This document shows positions 384 to 19,365 of a stretch of 24,902 nucleotides of DNA, piece after piece. The position numbers and the translations under genes were made by a program. Position 1 is the stretch's first letter. Every line of letters starts with the position of its first letter. The notes beneath the pieces were generated by a model. That model worked only from the letters and a program-made list of their open reading frames with translations, was not told the DNA's origin and ran no database searches. Source of the stretch: a virus; IMG/VR virus record IMGVR_UViG_3300030331_001159, positions 1-24,902 of that record. One strand, given 5' to 3'.

Positions 384-686
384 ATGGCTGTTCGTAAGAA
401 AAAGAAGGGCATGGGCATAAAGTCTAGTGTTAAGTCTGGAAACTTTAGACCGACTAGACAAGGTGCTGGTATGACAGCTAAAGGTGTGGCTGCTTACCGT
501 CGTGCTAATCCTGGTTCTAAACTAAAAACTGCTGTTACAGGTAAAGTCGCAAAAGGTAGCAAAGCTGCCAAAAGAAGAAAGTCATTTTGTGCACGATCTG
601 CGGGTCAAGCCAAAATGCATAATATTAACTGTCGAAAGACACCAAACAAAAGAATTTGTCAAGCAAGAAGGAGATGGAAATGTTAG
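384..686 (+). CDS. Lys/Arg-rich Cys protein, orphan marine phage family (100 aa)
   Basis: About 31 of 100 residues are Lys or Arg. The N-terminus is MAVRKKKKGMGIK. The middle carries GMTAKGVAAYRRANPG, and the C-terminal third has KSFCARSAGQ and ends in RRRWKC, with four Cys in the last 35 residues (KSFC, NINC, RIC, WKC). From memory this KSFCAR...RRxWKC pattern recurs in small proteins of marine phages and belongs near the DUF6321-type group; the domain number was not checked. The Cys spacing could bind a metal. A role in coating or condensing packaged DNA is only a guess from charge and from its position near head genes. A good Shine-Dalgarno for the next gene lies inside its 3' end. Confidence 0.72.
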   Translation: MAVRKKKKGMGIKSSVKSGNFRPTRQGAGMTAKGVAAYRRANPGSKLKTAVTGKVAKGSKAAKRRKSFCARSAGQAKMHNINCRKTPNKRICQARRRWKC

Positions 687-1179: not shown

Positions 1180-1304
1180 TGCAAGTAACAAAAAACGTAA
1201 TAAGGTTTAATAAGTTAATGATAAAGATTCCACAAGATACAAAAAGAGTGTGGGATTTATCAGAGAATCGATGGGGGTATAAATATGACAAAGTTATGTC
1301 CTAG
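1179..1304 (+). CDS. Microprotein of unknown function (41 aa)
   Basis: The ATG at 1179 overlaps the upstream stop (TAATG). The product reads MQVTKNVIRFNKLMIKIPQD, then a segment containing KRVWDLSENRWGY, and ends at TAG 1302-1304, about 20 bases inside the following gene. The aromatic and basic make-up, the coupled start and the fully used space between neighbours argue that it is real. There is no recognisable domain. It could be a leader that couples translation of the next gene, whose start lies inside it. Confidence 0.5.
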   Translation: MQVTKNVIRFNKLMIKIPQDTKRVWDLSENRWGYKYDKVMS

Positions 1305-1539
1305 AGGTAAAGCTGCTGCCAAACGTAAGTTCGCAGTCTATCCAAGTGCTTATGCAAATGCCTATGCATCAAAGATTTGTGCGGGTAAAATAAAAGATCC
1401 TAGTGGTAAAAAGAGAAAAGATTTTAAAGGACCAAAGCCTAGAAAAGCTGGAGGAGGCACTATTAAATTAAACGGTGGTGGAAAGGTTGCTCGTGGTTGT
1501 GGTATAGTAAAAAGAAAGAAGAAAACTAAATACAGATAA
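1285..1539 (+). CDS. Lys-rich Cys protein with GGGK motif, orphan family (84 aa)
   Basis: The start ATG 1285 follows GGGGG at 1272-1276. The N-terminal half reads LCPRGKAAAKRKFAVYPSAY and continues into a second Ala/Tyr-rich stretch ending KICAGKIKDP. From memory this is a widespread small marine phage family. The C-terminal half is Lys/Gly-rich with AGGGTIKLNGGGKVARGCG, so it also contains the GG-K motif seen in several other proteins of this window. There are three Cys in total (residue 5, one in KIC, one in RGC). The function is unknown; packaging with the genome or a scaffold role is speculation. Confidence 0.75.
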   Translation: MTKLCPRGKAAAKRKFAVYPSAYANAYASKICAGKIKDPSGKKRKDFKGPKPRKAGGGTIKLNGGGKVARGCGIVKRKKKTKYR

Positions 1540-1540
1540 C

Positions 1541-1639
1541 ATGACTAAAAAAAACTATTATACACAAAGAGAATGGGACAGAGTTGTTGGTTATGGAAAA
1601 GTTCCAAAAGAATATAAGTTAAAAAAACATCATGGCTAA
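1541..1639 (+). CDS. Microprotein (32 aa), translationally coupled
   Basis: It begins 1 base after the preceding stop and encodes MTKKNYYTQREWDRVVGYGK followed by VPKEYKLKKHHG. Its last 8 bases overlap the start of the next gene in another frame. The YTxxEWxxVVGxGKVP pattern looks like small basic phage proteins I have seen, and the gene exactly fills an otherwise unexplained 92-base gap. There is no identifiable domain, and short length limits certainty. Confidence 0.55.
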   Translation: MTKKNYYTQREWDRVVGYGKVPKEYKLKKHHG

Positions 1640-1907
1640 AAAAGGTTTAAAAACATGGTTCAAAGAAAACTGGGTAGATATATCTACAGGTAAAAAGTGT
1701 GGCCGTAAATCAGCTAAATCATCAAAAAGAAAGTATCCAGTCTGTCGTCCAAAGGCAGTAGCTGATAGAATGACAGCAGGTCAGAAAGCTGCGGCTGTTA
1801 GAAGAAAAAGAGCCAAGACTAACGTAGGTCCAAAGCCTACATCTATTCGTTATCCTATTAGTGCGAGTGGACGTAAACAGAAGGTTAAAACTAAACGAAG
1901 GAGATAG
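1632..1907 (+). CDS. Highly basic two-Cys protein, DUF6321-like (91 aa)
   Basis: 31 of 91 residues are Lys or Arg. The N-terminal half reads LKTWFKENWVDIST, then GKKCGRKSA and KRKYPVCRPKA (two Cys), followed by MTAGQKAAAVRRKRAK. From memory, WFKxNWVDI with CGR and KYPxCxP is the signature of a small family common in algal viruses and marine phages, near DUF6321; this was not checked by search. A compact Cys-based fold that binds nucleic acid would fit the charge. The extreme C-terminus is a run of basic residues. The 3' end provides the Shine-Dalgarno (1898-1904) for the next gene. Confidence 0.75.
   Translation: MAKKGLKTWFKENWVDISTGKKCGRKSAKSSKRKYPVCRPKAVADRMTAGQKAAAVRRKRAKTNVGPKPTSIRYPISASGRKQKVKTKRRR
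1898..1904 (+). promoter_or_regulatory. Strong ribosome-binding site
   Basis: AAGGAGA, 9 bases before ATG 1914. It is the best Shine-Dalgarno in the first 2 kb and fixes that start. Confidence 0.75.
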
Positions 1908-1913
1908 ACGACG

Positions 1914-2372
1914 ATGATTGATCCATTGACAGCTTTTGCAGCATTAAAAACTGCAAGTTCGGCTATATCCTCTGCCGTAAAAGCTGGTAGAGATTTAGGA
2001 TCTCTCGTTGGTCCTATCACAAAACTAGCAAAAGCAGAAGCTGATTTAAGCTTTGCAGCAGAAAAGAAGGGTGGTATACTTGGGAAATTGACGGGAGCTG
2101 AGCAGACAGCAATTGAAGCTCACTTTCGGAAAGAGGAGGCCAAACGTATTCGTGATGAAATGCGTGAATTGTTTTTATTGTTTGGCTCTCCTGGACAGTG
2201 GGAAAGACTACAAGGTGAAATTGCTAACGAAAGATCTCGTCGAAAGAAAGCTCTTGAAGAATTAGCAGCAAAGAAACGTCGACTCAAAAATACAATTATT
2301 ATAACTGTATCTATTGTGGCGGCGGTGATAATATTAACATTTGAAATCATGTACTTAAAAGGAGCACTATAA
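1914..2372 (+). CDS. Helical phage protein with C-terminal membrane anchor (152 aa)
   Basis: The start is well set by AAGGAGA at 1898-1904, 9 bases upstream. The N-terminus, MIDPLTAFAALKTA with an Ala/Ser-rich helix, is one I associate with a common phage virion-associated family. The middle is strongly helical and charged, with GSPGQWERLQGEIANERS then a Lys/Arg/Glu coiled coil. Residues about 126-150 form a single hydrophobic helix (IIITVSIVAAVIILTFEIMY). A C-terminal span is not obvious in the family members I recall, so this one may sit in the host membrane. Possible roles include a lysis or superinfection factor, or a virion protein; none is proven. Confidence 0.68.
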   Translation: MIDPLTAFAALKTASSAISSAVKAGRDLGSLVGPITKLAKAEADLSFAAEKKGGILGKLTGAEQTAIEAHFRKEEAKRIRDEMRELFLLFGSPGQWERLQGEIANERSRRKKALEELAAKKRRLKNTIIITVSIVAAVIILTFEIMYLKGAL

Positions 2373-2373
2373 A

Positions 2374-3006
2374 ATGGTAATGATAAAAAACAGAAAGACA
2401 GTGAAGGGTAAGTTAGGTAGCACTAGACCAAAAGATACCGACTTTGCTGGTATAGCAAGAAAACAAAGTAGAAAGAAAAAGACTACAACTAAAAGTAATA
2501 GACCTACTGATGCTAGAACTAAAGCTCTTAGAACAGCTTTAAAAGAGAAACAGAAACTAGCGGGTAAAGGATTAGGTCAAGCTGGTCAAGCATTCTTAGG
2601 AGGATCTGCAAAACAGACACCAGTTTCTCCAAAGAAAAAACCAACAGGTAGGCCTGGTGGAAAGATGAGTAGGCCTGCTGCTAAATCACCACCTAAACGA
2701 AGACGTGGCTTTGGTTTTACATCCAGAACAGGACCAATTAAATTAAAACCAAGATTTGCTGGTGGTGGTAAGACTTCTAAATATCGCATGGCCGGAGGAG
2801 GTAAGACTTCTAAATACCGTATGGCCGGTGGTGGGAAGACCTCCAAGTATCGTATGGCTGGGGGTGGAAAGACTTCTAAATATCGTATGGCTGGGGGTGG
2901 TAAAACATCTAAGTACAGAATGAAGGGTGGAGGTAAGACATCTAAGTATATGGCTAAAGGTGGTAAAACTTCCAAGTACATGAGACGAGGCGGCAAGGTT
3001 AAGTAG
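2374..3006 (+). CDS. Basic protein with C-terminal GGKTSKY repeats (210 aa)
   Basis: The start ATG 2374 follows AAAAGGAG (2357-2364). Residues 1-128 are disordered-looking and Lys/Arg/Pro-rich (KQSRKKKTTTKSNRP; KSPPKRRRGFGF). From residue 129 come five exact copies of an 11-residue unit, AGGGKTSKYRM, then two 10-residue variants (KGGGKTSKYM, AKGGKTSKYM) and a tail RRGGKVK. The heptapeptide GGKTSKY is kept in all seven. Low-complexity basic GGK-repeat proteins are seen in marine phages, but their role is unknown; DNA binding, RNA binding or a docking scaffold are all possible. The stop TAG overlaps the GTG start of the next gene (TAGTG). Confidence 0.78.
   Translation: MVMIKNRKTVKGKLGSTRPKDTDFAGIARKQSRKKKTTTKSNRPTDARTKALRTALKEKQKLAGKGLGQAGQAFLGGSAKQTPVSPKKKPTGRPGGKMSRPAAKSPPKRRRGFGFTSRTGPIKLKPRFAGGGKTSKYRMAGGGKTSKYRMAGGGKTSKYRMAGGGKTSKYRMAGGGKTSKYRMKGGGKTSKYMAKGGKTSKYMRRGGKVK
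2758..2982 (+). repeat. Tandem 33-bp (then 30-bp) coding repeats
   Basis: Seven in-frame units: five of 33 bp (2758-2922) and two of 30 bp (2923-2952, 2953-2982). The protein unit is invariant in the first five, but the DNA differs at many third positions (Gly as GGT/GGA/GGG, Thr as ACT/ACC/ACA, Lys as AAA/AAG, Arg as CGC/CGT/AGA). The array is therefore old and kept by selection on the protein rather than freshly duplicated. Confidence 0.9.
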
Positions 3007-3680
3007 TGGCATATACAATTTCTAACATCCCACACTTTAAGTGTTGGGTGAGGAAAGAGTTCACACATAACCACGAGAAATACCAAGGAGAGTTTCTCCA
3101 TGCTTTGGCTTTTGCAGTGTGCACTATCCCAGACCGTTGTTTAAGTTTTCAAGTTGTGTTTACAGGATGTGGCGAAGATCACCCTAATCCTCACGGTGGA
3201 GCTATGTGGGCACGTATACCAATAACGTCTTTAGTGGGGGACACACCGTTTGATGAATGGCCACCAAACATACAGACTCATTTAGCCCAACCATGGGATT
3301 GCTCCAGTCGTAATCATGCCATCATCAGAATGGACAGAATTAGTTCAAGTCCGTGGTTGTGTAAGATAGCAGGTGAGTTCTATAATGGTAAGTATATGTT
3401 TACGGTTGACTATACCGACAGTTATATATCAGATGATCCAGCACAACATAAACAATCACATGTGTTGGAATTGACATCGGGTCCGTATAAAGGTTGTATA
3501 GTGGCATTACCAAACAATCGTGTACGTGTAACCAACCCTGCGCTATGGGCAGTTGGAGAAGGACCACCAGACTTTGTGCCGTCACAGTGGGAACACTCCG
3601 CAGAACAACACGATAGTTATATGGACTGGGAAACAACATTTGATAACCTATATGAATGGGGAAAGGATAAGAAAAAATGA
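3006..3680 (+). CDS. Conserved orphan marine phage protein (224 aa)
   Basis: It starts at GTG 3006, overlapping the upstream TAG (TAGTG), and reads MAYTISNIPHFKCWVRKEFT. It is rich in Trp, His, Cys and Pro. Notable segments are NPHGGAMWARIPITSLVGDT, QPWDCSSRNHAI, WLCKIAGEFYNGKY, FTVDYTDSYISDDPAQHKQS and GCIVALPNNRVRVTNPALW. From memory this protein is very well conserved in uncultured marine phages while having no assigned function. The many conserved His/Cys/Asp positions could suggest an enzyme or metal-binding protein, but no known catalytic motif is recognised. Its GC (about 46% over 3061-3360, hand-counted) is higher than flanking genes. It overlaps the next gene by ATGA. Confidence 0.8.
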   Translation: MAYTISNIPHFKCWVRKEFTHNHEKYQGEFLHALAFAVCTIPDRCLSFQVVFTGCGEDHPNPHGGAMWARIPITSLVGDTPFDEWPPNIQTHLAQPWDCSSRNHAIIRMDRISSSPWLCKIAGEFYNGKYMFTVDYTDSYISDDPAQHKQSHVLELTSGPYKGCIVALPNNRVRVTNPALWAVGEGPPDFVPSQWEHSAEQHDSYMDWETTFDNLYEWGKDKKK

Positions 3681-3835
3681 AATTAACAGATCTTAGTGGA
3701 GATGGAAAAGTAACTCAAAAGGACAAACTTATTGGTGCCGGTGTTTTGGACAAGGACGGTAATAAAGTTAAGAAAAAGTTTTTTAATGGTGGTAAAGTAC
3801 ATGCATCATTTGGAACTGACTTCGACGATAGGTAA
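3677..3835 (+). CDS. EF-hand/dockerin-like microprotein with GGKV motif (52 aa)
   Basis: The ATG overlaps the upstream TGA (ATGA). Residues 5-16, DLSGDGKVTQKD, match the 12-residue EF-hand/dockerin calcium loop at positions 1, 3, 5, 6, 8, 9 and 12 (D, S, D, G, V, T, D). The next segment reads KLIGAGVLDKDGNKVKKKFF, followed by NGGKV and a short acidic end. A single loop is unusual, so binding might need a dimer. The GGKV motif recurs in the larger virion-associated proteins downstream. I recall similar DGKVTxxDxLIGxGV microproteins in marine phages. Function unknown. Confidence 0.72.
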   Translation: MKLTDLSGDGKVTQKDKLIGAGVLDKDGNKVKKKFFNGGKVHASFGTDFDDR

Positions 3836-3840
3836 ATATT

Positions 3841-3951
3841 ATGGATAATAAAAAAGTACGTAAAATTATTAGTGGTTTAAAAAAAGCATCAAAGCTACAT
3901 GCTTCTCAGGCTAAACAACTTGAGGGCATGTTAAAACAAAAGAAGAAATAG
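3841..3951 (+). CDS. Basic helical microprotein (36 aa)
   Basis: This 36-codon gene fits exactly between the EF-hand-like microprotein and the first adaptor, whose ATG follows its TAG directly. It encodes MDNKKVRKIISGLKKASKLH then ASQAKQLEGMLKQKKK, which is one amphipathic basic helix. I recall the pattern KIIxGLKxASxxHAxQAxxLE in small proteins at this point of related phage genomes, which supports it as real. It may be a small assembly or scaffold factor for the head-tail connector; this is inferred from position only. Confidence 0.68.
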   Translation: MDNKKVRKIISGLKKASKLHASQAKQLEGMLKQKKK

Positions 3952-4644
3952 ATGGCAACTTCAGGTACAACAACATTCAATCTCGATATAGCTGATGTAA
4001 TTGAAGAAGCCATGGCTATGTTAGGTGGTGAGCAAACTCTAGGGTTTGAACCGTTAGAGGCACGTCGCACACTTAACCTTCTTCTTATCGATTGGATGAA
4101 CCGTGGTATATTACTTTGGAAACAAAACTTAGCCACATTGGATATAACAAGTGGCACAGCTGAATATACATTACCAACTTCACTTATAGATATAACTGAA
4201 TTAGTTCACAGAACAGTCAGTGGTTCAACAACCACAGACTTAGCTTTAGAACGTATTACTATGGAAGCTTATCAAAGAATTACAAACAAGACACAAACGG
4301 GTAGACCAACACAGTATGCTATCAATAGATTAAGAGATGCAGCTGAATTATATTTATGGCCTACACCTGATACCACAACTTCAAGTGGCACACCTATATT
4401 ATCATATTTCAGCTTTAACAGAGTTGAAGATATAACAAAGTCCGATCAAGATCCTGATGTTCCTTTTAGATTCTTACCATGTTTAGCTACCGGCTTAGCT
4501 TATAAAATGTCTATCAAAAGACCAGGCATTACATCCGAAAGAGCCAGTATGTTAAAACAAATGTACGAAGAAGAATTAACATCAGCAATGTATGCAGATA
4601 AAGAAAGAGCTAGTCTTTTGATTAAGCCATCGTTTAGGTTATAA
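3952..4644 (+). CDS. Head-tail adaptor-like protein, P22 gp4/T7 gp11 type (230 aa)
   Basis: The protein starts with an alpha-helical bundle region (DVIEEAMAMLGGEQTLGFEP, EARRTLNLLLIDWMNRGILL). A beta-rich insert follows (TSGTAEYTLPTSLIDITEL, LYLWPTPDT), then a C-terminal helical pair (PFRFLPCLATGLAYKMSIKR, MLKQMYEEELTSAM). This helix-bundle, beta-insert, helix order and the length are those of podovirus adaptor rings that sit under the portal (P22 gp4, T7 gp11 tail tubular A). The role would be joining the portal to the tail nozzle. The assignment is by architecture and by the nearby second adaptor and nozzle genes. Its TAA overlaps the next ATG. Confidence 0.68.
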   Translation: MATSGTTTFNLDIADVIEEAMAMLGGEQTLGFEPLEARRTLNLLLIDWMNRGILLWKQNLATLDITSGTAEYTLPTSLIDITELVHRTVSGSTTTDLALERITMEAYQRITNKTQTGRPTQYAINRLRDAAELYLWPTPDTTTSSGTPILSYFSFNRVEDITKSDQDPDVPFRFLPCLATGLAYKMSIKRPGITSERASMLKQMYEEELTSAMYADKERASLLIKPSFRL

Positions 4645-4913
4645 TGGCAAAAGGTAAGTATGCATACTTTATCTGCGACCGATCAGGGTTTAGATTTAAA
4701 TACTCTGAGAGAGTCAAAGAGCCGACGGGGTTGGTTGTTGGAGCTTCGGAAACGGATGGTCGATATAATATATTAGATCACCCGCAGAACAAAACTCCAA
4801 GAATTAATGACGATGAAAACTTGAGGGATGCACGTCCGGAAGTCGTACTAGCTACAACTGGCGATGCTGGATGGAGTCCCGATGATTCAACATTTACAAA
4901 GAGAGGTAACTAA
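4644..4913 (+). CDS. Small ICDRSGF-motif phage protein (89 aa)
   Basis: Coupled to the adaptor by TAATG. The N-terminus carries YFICDRSGFRFKYSERVKEP and a later SETDGRYNILDHPQNKTPR stretch, then an acidic Pro-containing tail. From memory, ICDRSGxRF...SETDG is a short conserved phage family found in connector regions, often with the Cys-Asp-Arg-Ser-Gly segment intact. It is probably a virion or assembly protein, but its role is not known. It has no transmembrane segment, signal or catalytic motif. Confidence 0.7.
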   Translation: MAKGKYAYFICDRSGFRFKYSERVKEPTGLVVGASETDGRYNILDHPQNKTPRINDDENLRDARPEVVLATTGDAGWSPDDSTFTKRGN

Positions 4914-16680: not shown

Positions 16681-17098
16681 GGTAGAAGAGGTTAAATCTT
16701 TTGATGATATTGAAGAATTGTTTATGTTATTTCCCGTGGAAATCGAACGAATACCGTTTGAAAACAAATACACGCCAGAAATACTTAGACAACATATTGA
16801 AACAGGAGTGTTAGGTTTGTTAAGAATAAAACATAATGGTAGAATAATCGCAGGTTATGTAATAAAGATAAATGTTTATCCAACAACAAAACGATTATTA
16901 GAAATATTGTTTATCTTTGGAAGAAACCTTAACTTTCGTGTGGGTAAACAAATATTTAAGAAGCTTGAAGACTTAGCTCAACAGTTAAAGTTAGACGGCA
17001 TTGAATTAACCGGTCGTATGCAGTGGAATAAAGTATGCGATAAGCTTGGTTTCGATAACCAACAATTTATACAGAGAACAAAATGGCTGACTTATTAA
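16673..17098 (+). CDS. GNAT-fold acetyltransferase-like protein (141 aa, TTG start)
   Basis: The start TTG 16673 overlaps the upstream stop; no in-frame ATG appears until about 50 bases later. The protein has a beta hairpin (GLLRIKHNGRIIAGYVIKIN), a long strand (RLLEILFIFGRNLNF), a helix (VGKQIFKKLEDLAQQLKLDG) and the GNAT-like end IELTGRMQWNKVCDKLGFD. The usual acetyl-CoA loop (Q/R-x2-GxG/A) is not evident, so catalysis is doubtful. T7-like phages carry a related GNAT-fold protein (gp13 region, DUF2833-type) beside their internal virion genes, and the position here matches. It may serve as an assembly or ejection factor rather than an enzyme. Confidence 0.65.
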   Translation: MLEVEEVKSFDDIEELFMLFPVEIERIPFENKYTPEILRQHIETGVLGLLRIKHNGRIIAGYVIKINVYPTTKRLLEILFIFGRNLNFRVGKQIFKKLEDLAQQLKLDGIELTGRMQWNKVCDKLGFDNQQFIQRTKWLTY

Positions 17099-19365
17099 AA
17101 CGATTACAAATTTCTGAACAACATTACGGTGTAGGAATGGAGGACAATCCATTCAAAGATGCATCACCAGATGAGTGCATGAGTGTATGCTTCGGTGGTG
17201 GTGGTGGACGATCACCTCCCCCTCCCCCGCCTCAAACAGTTACACAACAAACAAGTAACATACCAGAATATTTTCAACCGTATTTAGAAAGATTGTTTGA
17301 AAGAGCTGAAGGTGTAACAACAGAACCATTTGAAAGATATGAAGGACAAAGACTAGCTTTACCAACCCCGCAACAACAAGCTGCATATCAAGGTGTTGAA
17401 GAAATGGTTGGTGGCTACAAACCATATATAGCTACGGCTGATCTATTGACAGCTCAAGCAGCGCAACAATCAACAGACCCAACAGCTATTGCTTCACGTA
17501 TGAGTCCATACCAACAAGCTGTTGTTGATATACAAAAAAGAGAAGCTTTACGTGATGCTAATAAACTACAACAACAAATAGGAGCATCAGCAGTTGGTGC
17601 AGGTTCTTTTGGTGGATCACGACAAGCTTTAGCTGAAACAGAATTAGCCAGACAGACTGGACAAAGACTTGCTGACATACAAGCCGTTGGATCACAACAA
17701 GCTTTTCAACAAGCTATGAATCAATTGTCTGCTGACAGAGCAGCATCACTTGCGGCTGGTCAACAGTTTGCTGGTCTTGGCGCACAACAACAGCAGTTAG
17801 GATTAGCTGGGTTAGGTGCACTTGAAACTGTCGGTGGTACACAACAAGCTCAACAACAAAAAGCACTAGACATTGCATATGAAGACTTTGCACGAGAAAG
17901 AACTTTCCCATCTCAACAAGTACAAGAGATGTCATCTGTACTTCGTGGATTTAATTTACCAGTATCGACATACACAACATCTCAAGCACAACAAGCACCA
18001 CCAACATTCGGACAACAAGCAGCCGGTCTTGGTTTGGGTGCACTAGGTATCTATGGTGCGGGTAAAGGTGTAGGACTATTCGCCAAGGGTGGTGATGTTC
18101 CTGATAATCCGGGTATAAAAAAATTAGCCGCCAAAGCTCCACAAGTTGTAGAGAAGATGGGCTTTGATCCACAGGAAGTTATGAATGCTTACGTTGGTGG
18201 TAAGATGACATATGCAGAAGGTGATAGAGTTTCTGATCCATTTACAGAGGGTGGTATTAATTATTTAATTTCTACATTTGGACCACTTGAAAAAGCAAGA
18301 TACGAAGGAGCACTTAAAGAAGGACTATCAAGAGAAGAAGCCATTGAGTTTGCAAAAGACGTAAGTGGTAAGGCTGATCCGTTTTATCCAGAAGTGGCTC
18401 TACCATTTATAGGACCAGCAGCAAGAACTTTAGGTACAGCTAAAACTATTTATGATAAAGCTATTCAATCACCAGCAAGACAAGGAACGACAAAAGAACC
18501 ACCAAAGAAAACTATTAGTCAAAGAATATCTGAGGCTACTGGTGGCACAAAACAGATCCAACCTAAAGCTTCGCCTCAACAAAGAGCAGAAGCAGTAATA
18601 CCAGCTAGAATAAGAGGACCTAAAGATGCTGCACAGTTTGGGACTGGTCGTTTTCAACAAGCTAAAGCTCTTGAAGCGCCAATAAATTTAGAGGCACAAA
18701 AGAAAACAACAATGATGGACACTGAAGAAGCAAATAAAAAAACAACAATAGAAGAGAAAGATACAACAGATAAAAAAGACCCAGTCATAGATCCAAATAA
18801 AATTATTGCTAAAGAAGAAGAGTCATCATTGGATATGTTAAAAAACATGTTAAAACCAAAAGAAGAAGGTATTGATATCATGGCAGCTAAAACTGGTTTA
18901 CTTGATTTCATAGCGGCTGAAGATATTAGAACTGGTAAAGCCGGTGCCGAAGAAGCGGCTAAAAGAATAACTGAAAGAGGACTAGCTCAACAAAAATTTA
19001 AAGCTGATGAACAACAAGAACAATTTAATAATGCTGTAGCTATCGCAGGTCTAGATTTAAAACAACAAGAACTCGTTGCTAATGAAGCGGCAAGTATTCG
19101 TAAGTACATAACTGAAACATTAAAACTAGATGCCGAGAGAACAAATAAATATATGGCAGAAATATTAGGTAGTCCACAACTTGTTTCAATGTTACAAGAT
19201 CCAGAAACAAAAACACAGATTATTAAACAAATACTTGAAACCGAACAAGACATAAAAAAAGGACTAGGTGTTGAAAAAGATTCAACCGATAAAGCTAACC
19301 TAGGCACCACTGATAGTGGTGTTACTTTTTCAATAAAAGGTATTCCTAAACCACAGGAGCAATAG
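17083..19365 (+). CDS. Gln/Ala-rich internal virion protein (760 aa)
   Basis: It overlaps the GNAT gene by 16 bases. Residues 38-50 are GGGGGRSPPPPPP. A second possible start, M33 (nt 17179), would give MSVCFGGGG, a start seen in some relatives, but it lacks a good Shine-Dalgarno. Residues 140-290 form a long Gln/Ala-rich helical region (MSPYQQAVVDIQKREALRDA, SFGGSRQALAETELARQTGQ, YEDFARERTFPSQQVQEMSS), a pattern known to me from marine phage internal or tape-like proteins. AKGGDVP (GG at 336) repeats the GGxV motif. The C-terminal half is Lys/Glu-rich coiled coil. A role in the ejected channel, like T7 gp14/gp15, is inferred. Confidence 0.72.
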   Translation: MADLLKRLQISEQHYGVGMEDNPFKDASPDECMSVCFGGGGGRSPPPPPPQTVTQQTSNIPEYFQPYLERLFERAEGVTTEPFERYEGQRLALPTPQQQAAYQGVEEMVGGYKPYIATADLLTAQAAQQSTDPTAIASRMSPYQQAVVDIQKREALRDANKLQQQIGASAVGAGSFGGSRQALAETELARQTGQRLADIQAVGSQQAFQQAMNQLSADRAASLAAGQQFAGLGAQQQQLGLAGLGALETVGGTQQAQQQKALDIAYEDFARERTFPSQQVQEMSSVLRGFNLPVSTYTTSQAQQAPPTFGQQAAGLGLGALGIYGAGKGVGLFAKGGDVPDNPGIKKLAAKAPQVVEKMGFDPQEVMNAYVGGKMTYAEGDRVSDPFTEGGINYLISTFGPLEKARYEGALKEGLSREEAIEFAKDVSGKADPFYPEVALPFIGPAARTLGTAKTIYDKAIQSPARQGTTKEPPKKTISQRISEATGGTKQIQPKASPQQRAEAVIPARIRGPKDAAQFGTGRFQQAKALEAPINLEAQKKTTMMDTEEANKKTTIEEKDTTDKKDPVIDPNKIIAKEEESSLDMLKNMLKPKEEGIDIMAAKTGLLDFIAAEDIRTGKAGAEEAAKRITERGLAQQKFKADEQQEQFNNAVAIAGLDLKQQELVANEAASIRKYITETLKLDAERTNKYMAEILGSPQLVSMLQDPETKTQIIKQILETEQDIKKGLGVEKDSTDKANLGTTDSGVTFSIKGIPKPQEQ

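Follow-up and report, generated by a model that had tools for sequence, protein, structure and literature searches.

A repeated basic C-terminal tail retained beneath exchangeable protein bodies in a gene slot of marine podovirus-like phages

What is gained by a phage protein that ends in the same short basic peptide several times over, and which part of such a protein is held constant in evolution? These questions are raised by a gene in the IMG/VR virus record IMGVR_UViG_3300030331_001159, positions 1 to 24,902 of which make up the stretch of DNA analyzed here (hereafter, the window), a fragment of the genome of an uncultured, marine, podovirus-like phage. The open reading frame (ORF) at 2374-3006 on the plus strand encodes a 210 amino acid protein, and an array of GGGKTSKY repeats, encoded by 2758-3003, forms its C-terminal tail. 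We report that this gene occupies a genome slot, in a lineage related to pelagiphages, where the front of the protein is exchanged while the repeated tail is held under selection. The gene consists of the following elements:

2359..2364, plus strand: AAGGAG, resembling a ribosome-binding site, 9 nucleotides upstream of the start codon (from the sequence) and kept before different bodies
2374..3006, plus strand: gene of the tailed basic protein, 210 amino acids (an ORF with no family match over cut-off)
2374..2757, plus strand: exchangeable N-terminal body, with two short predicted helices and the rest of low confidence; absent in relatives that retain the tail
2758..3003, plus strand: GGGKTSKY array, the constant C-terminal tail; no acidic residue, and no fold predicted by AlphaFold2 (AF2)
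2923..3003, plus strand: terminal cap KGGGKTSKYMAKGGKTSKYMRRGGKVK, the best-conserved part by comparison of caps and their substitution rates, common to unrelated bodies

The array comprises five tandem copies of AGGGKTSKYRM, the GGGKTSKY cores of which start at 2761, 2794, 2827, 2860, and 2893, followed by the degenerate units GGGKTSKYMA (2926) and KGGKTSKYMR (2956) and the final RGGKVK; it was also detected by Tandem Repeats Finder. Perfect protein repeats with differing synonymous codons had been reported in the initial annotation of the window, and the five perfect and two degenerate units bear this out, except that the identical unit is not the 10-mer of its title but 11 residues long, including Ala. 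The units differ in their Ala, Gly, Lys, Thr, Ser, Tyr, and Arg codons. Because the mean pairwise codon identity of the five perfect units, 0.41, is close to the 0.46 ± 0.07 obtained in random synonymous draws from the codon usage of the window, third positions are near saturation but not specially scrambled, and the units are old enough for that; we therefore rejected the idea that codons were scrambled to avoid recombination. Codon identity also lies within the random range in 10 of the 11 related genes with at least four cores, the exception (L097; L numbers designate related loci) having units that are more alike. All seven Ser codons of the array are TCT or TCC and none is AGY, a sign that the units descend from a common ancestor. 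We also rejected an antisense gene overlapping the array (a 171 amino acid minus-strand ORF at 2586-3101), because 19 of 55 distinct related genes interrupt the codon-aligned antisense frame.

A search of viral contigs yielded 133 relatives, of which 80 were kept, and the scan of viral contigs for such arrays that the initial annotation had proposed, conducted with a DNA pattern for GGGKT.KY, matched 84 stretches. The tail was found on many different N-terminal bodies (52 distinct proteins, a few of which, L112 and L143 for example, match by chance). L123 matches the window's DNA at 96-100% identity as far as the start codon, carries an unrelated body, and returns to 98% identity over positions 3001-3050 and 92-98% beyond. 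Feature-by-feature comparison showed that the body is absent and the tail kept also in L127, L132, L106, L156, L121, L125, L122, and others. The exchanged part begins at the start codon, and the tail is retained; the DNA of the cap can even be identical across different bodies, as it is between L017 and L047 and between L071 and L103.

A sample of the slot blind to the tail was obtained with the upstream gene (1914-2372) as bait, at 80% identity or more. It comprised 33 loci, 3 of which end before the tail; the GGKTSKY tail is present in 27 of the 30 loci with a complete next gene, a diverged GG-K-Y tail in 2 (L252 and L259), and another tail in 1 (L260), where a body of type 1 carries the FDDR-type ending FGKDYDDR. 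Several contigs in this sample are near duplicates, so that independent events are fewer than loci, and below 80% identity of the upstream gene, the slot gene is mostly something else. Freely degenerating repeats and frameshifts, the outcomes that the initial annotation had named as speaking against its view, are absent in these 30 relatives. Relatives carry between 2 and 7 units: among 29 distinct proteins, we counted three cores in 15, five in 7, four in 3, two in 2, seven in 1, and one in 1, the last of which looks cut by the stretch end. Judging from this range, the arrays grow and shrink over longer times, although the earlier argument against recent slippage is sound for the window itself.

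Among genes with type 1 bodies (28 pairs from 8 genes, L012, L013, and L103 being omitted from the eleven available), the ratio of nonsynonymous to synonymous substitution rates (dN/dS) is 0.065 in the cap versus 0.32 in the body. Across all body types, cap dN/dS is 0.088 over 17 distinct caps, with a bootstrap interval of 0.014-0.23. Synonymous divergence of the cap amounts to 0.29-0.35 per site, with amino acids retained. A separate value computed for cap paralogues is 0.38. By these estimates, the tail is under purifying selection. The strong selection on the peptide that had been read from the scattered codons is thus upheld by the relatives, although the scatter as such is what random codon choice produces.

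The tailed protein contains 63 Lys and Arg against 4 Asp and Glu residues (net charge +59, computed isoelectric point 11.9). It has no match in PHROGs or NCBIfam and no Pfam match over cut-off; the Spt5 C-terminal repeat (Pfam CTD) scored 19.6 bits, below the curated cut-off of 25.4, a resemblance that is likely compositional. The AF2 model, built on a six-row alignment, has a mean predicted local distance difference test score (pLDDT) of 52, and beyond the foldless tail, no more can be read from it. All bodies of the GGKTSKY set are basic, with net charges from +7 to +36. An ORF preceding the PurM-like gene described below in L197 starts with a LysM domain (Pfam, E = 1e-12), a peptidoglycan-binding body, followed by KGYSKGGA repeats; by eye, L202 and L217 show the same arrangement.

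The tail gene keeps a fixed place in marine podovirus-like phages, after the capsid gene and before that of the tail adaptor, and is surrounded in the window by these genes:

384..686, plus strand: DUF6321 protein, member of the cluster of small basic genes (Pfam, E = 7.7e-15)
1285..1539, plus strand: basic protein, homologue of HTVC023P gp51 with a different C-terminus (by homology)
1632..1907, plus strand: basic protein, homologue of HTVC023P gp52 (by homology)
1914..2372, plus strand: upstream neighbor, phrog_32327, with a C-terminal hydrophobic segment; bait for the slot sample (PHROG)
3006..3680, plus strand: PurM-like gene, phrog_3704, adjoining the tail gene in relatives (PHROG; named ferredoxin/PurM in phage records)
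3677..3835, plus strand: 52 amino acid gene, next but one to the tail gene, whose body varies and whose ending, FFNGGKVHASFGTDFDDR, is a second constant tail (from relatives)
3952..4644, plus strand: tail-adaptor-like gene, phrog_399, head and packaging, at the cluster end (PHROG)

The constant-tail, variable-body design is repeated, with another tail, by the neighboring gene at 3677-3835. Its ending FFNGGKVHASFGTDFDDR (or NPSFSNKFRG) occurs on 32 distinct proteins that fall into 14 body clusters, with up to 3 genes per locus, and the proteins with this FDDR tail are less basic than the GGKTSKY set. For the comparison of body modules, 28 of 63 GGK-tail proteins were omitted as their bodies are too short, and the other 35 formed 5 clusters, merged by single linkage via shared pieces. 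One body module is common to both tails (L033 and L017 versus L078; E = 1e-8 and 5e-7), and so is a second (L005 and L071 versus L080; E = 5e-5 and 4e-4); none of 20 shuffled control sets gave a match.

The tail gene is also tied to the PurM-like gene, upstream of it in the nearest group and downstream in most others. With the PurM-like gene as bait, a strict filter found a strongly repeated, basic GG-K ORF within 160 nucleotides in 53 of 80 loci. This filter was set after examples had been seen, and a looser one, used as a check on it, passed 69 of the 80 loci, together with 30 of 993 far same-strand ORFs (several of which are other tailed cluster genes) and none of 1363 antisense ORFs. That the array exceeds chance is indicated by ORFs of 40-260 amino acids distant from the PurM-like gene in the 80 related loci, which passed the repeat filter in 0 of 993 same-strand and 0 of 1363 antisense cases. 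In the reverse direction, a PurM-like gene lies within 200 nucleotides of the array in 71 of 80 pattern-scan loci (80 of the 84 stretches). The other 9 include 3 without a basic array ORF, 2 chance matches of 24 codons, 3 cut by the stretch end, and 1 true exception, L150, where the array gene at 906-1211 is the sole one of the scan to have no PurM-like gene nearby although the contig extends on both sides.

The PurM-like protein is mildly acidic (isoelectric point 5.8), and its fold was not resolved by AF2 (pLDDT 39, 35-row alignment). A sequence search of the PDB with this protein gave no match, nor does any Pfam family match it, and because neither a Pfam family nor a solved structure matches by sequence, the PurM and ferredoxin names look unsafe. 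The family is also present in 108 phage records, mostly of cyanophages; no tailed partner is named in the five of those neighborhoods that were displayed, where small proteins were translated in part.

Further along the window, 12268-14112 matches P22-type stabilization proteins, at 29-35% over most of its length for the pelagiphages HTVC023P and HTVC027P and for a freshwater phage, and 17083-19365, a gene separate from that of the tailed protein, matches a DNA ejection protein family. In L121, a major head protein precedes the cluster (PHROG, E = 1e-18; 54% to the HTVC023P capsid), with the gene of an acidic 325 amino acid protein, a candidate scaffold, ahead of it, and in two records of 59 kilobases, the tailed genes are grouped in one cluster of about 4 kilobases. 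Several observations concern other cluster members. The protein at 1285-1539 presents the converse of the tail gene, with an N-terminal part constant with gp51 and differing ends, ARGCG...KKTKYR here versus RGGGAAVRGMGFKGVF in gp51. The DUF6321 domain at 384-686 matches at or near the C-termini of long PHROG profiles and looks like another shared C-terminal domain on varied proteins. By eye, the DUF6321 proteins of L185, L188, and L214 have an N-terminal part similar to a 36 amino acid ORF with KKASKLHASQ at 3841-3951. In L102, an 895 amino acid ORF (2178-4865) with no Pfam match replaces ORFs 1285 and 1632.

What could the tail be for? The initial annotation took the array for a multivalent binding ligand, which is plausible; from the letters of the window, it could not be seen that N-terminal bodies unrelated to one another have this tail in common or that the tail is linked to a neighboring gene. 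The reading that we tentatively favor is that these are small basic late proteins, possibly packaged into the head in the manner of the T4 internal proteins, and that the repeat is their constant docking or DNA-binding tail. The basic proteins of the cluster would be made late and enter the head together with the DNA; the repeated, wholly basic, Tyr-bearing tail would serve as the docking or DNA-binding element, with several copies giving avidity; and the body would be an exchangeable effector, acting after ejection on DNA, the envelope, or the next host. This proposal draws on analogy with the T4 internal proteins and with scaffold loading in P22. We count in its favor the swap of bodies beneath a kept tail, the low dN/dS of the cap, the 27 of 30 loci in the slot sample, the modules found under two tails, the position of the cluster after a head gene, and the LysM body. 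Several points weigh against it. Packaging would be deduced here from genes; the T4 targeting sequence is N-terminal and cleaved, whereas here the constant tail ends the protein and it is the N-terminus that varies; and Peptidase_S78 was found in 0 of 3 related records (other protease families were not searched). Moreover, the uniformly basic GGKTSKY bodies are as compatible with simple polycations as with varied payloads, and the linkage of the tail gene to the PurM-like gene is left unexplained by packaging. Phage isolates with a GGKTSKY tail were not found either, the only hit being a weak match in a Salmonella contig, in searches with BLAST low-complexity masking on, which may hide isolates. 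Among genome contigs, 93 pattern matches included no relative, and we found no published description of the peptide or the repeat tail, nor a paper on pelagiphage structural proteins that appears to treat this cluster, in a literature search with thin coverage of subscription journals; for DUF6321/DUF5872, it turned up work on an algal virus.

The same charge that suits a packaged protein would suit an unpackaged polycation that binds nucleic acids in the infected cell, its tail and body condensing DNA or binding RNA through Lys and Tyr contacts while basic disordered bodies drift or are swapped. The very high net charge (+59 over 210 residues) and the foldless tail of the AF2 model, from a shallow alignment of six sequences only, are those of a protamine-like polycation, and the basic bodies and the absence of acidic residues from the tail in the window agree with this. 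Bodies of this kind would hardly be expected to contain recognizable modules that occur under two tails, to include a LysM domain, to show a dN/dS as far from 1 as 0.32, or to have less basic counterparts with the FDDR tail. We regard this explanation as doubtful in its own right and nearly as likely as packaging, because packaging is inferred, the tag lies at the opposite end, and the GGKTSKY bodies are all basic. It is less probable that the PurM-like protein docks on the tail and that the complex of the two positions the body. The two-way linkage and the mildly acidic partner are what such docking predicts; linkage can, however, come from shared recombination instead of binding, the family occurs in many phages with no tailed partner named in the neighborhoods displayed, and the model of the partner is unusable. 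Shared recombination could also be the reason for the tail itself, if repeat DNA and conserved adjoining genes were kept mainly as a handle for body swaps and the peptide had little function. Cap DNA nearly identical across unrelated bodies and conserved DNA adjoining the tail on its 3′ side accord with that idea, which we nevertheless consider very improbable: synonymous sites of the cap differ while amino acids are kept, as a DNA handle does not need, the repeat units within a gene differ in DNA as much as random codon choice would make them, and distant groups retain the style of the peptide in other wording.

The packaging reading can be extended, rather speculatively, to a tag-and-payload system, in which C-terminal multivalent tails (GGKTSKY, FDDR, and others) would direct a shuffled set of small proteins to the head, the PurM-like protein perhaps reading or loading the tails, such that anti-defense payloads could be swapped with the loading machinery unchanged. 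If the tails are loading tags, they would offer a sequence handle for virion-delivered proteins in uncultured marine phages, whose counter-defense genes are little known, and would represent a second solution to protein loading beside the T4 targeting sequence.

Among known systems, pelagiphages of the HTVC023P type share with these phages homologous capsid, adaptor, and two basic cluster genes, with counterparts of ORFs 1285, 1632, and 3952 of the window in the same order, and there, too, a PurM-like gene follows soon after the capsid gene; the slot, however, is occupied by gp53, which has another C-terminus, and the GGKTSKY array is absent. Within the same cluster, the DUF6321 proteins resemble the tailed protein in having a shared C-terminal domain, and differ in that this domain is Cys/Arg-rich, free of repeats, and without visible sequence relation to the tail. 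The phage is P22-like, with homologues of stabilization and DNA ejection proteins, and the P22 ejection proteins are loaded via the scaffold, according to the parts of PMC8402733 consulted; the ejection-protein homologue is nevertheless the other gene of the window (17083-19365), and the tailed protein matches no family of gp7, gp16, or gp20 in PHROGs, or in Pfam over cut-off.

As described in passages of PMC9026906 and PMC9391042, the T4 internal proteins are small and basic, bind DNA at low salt, and have bodies that differ among phages; a short targeting sequence suffices to load foreign proteins, IPI inhibits a restriction system, and IPIII is required on one host strain. The tailed protein differs in that its tag is C-terminal and repeated, in place of an N-terminal targeting sequence cut by the prohead protease; no Peptidase_S78 was found (3 records), and the virion genes are P22-like, not T4-like. 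We know of no sequence relation between it and the T4 internal proteins. What the tailed proteins have in common with IPI, IPII, and IPIII is their small size, their basic character, and a constant short tag on variable bodies, a likeness by which the tail may, as in T4, be the part that targets the protein.
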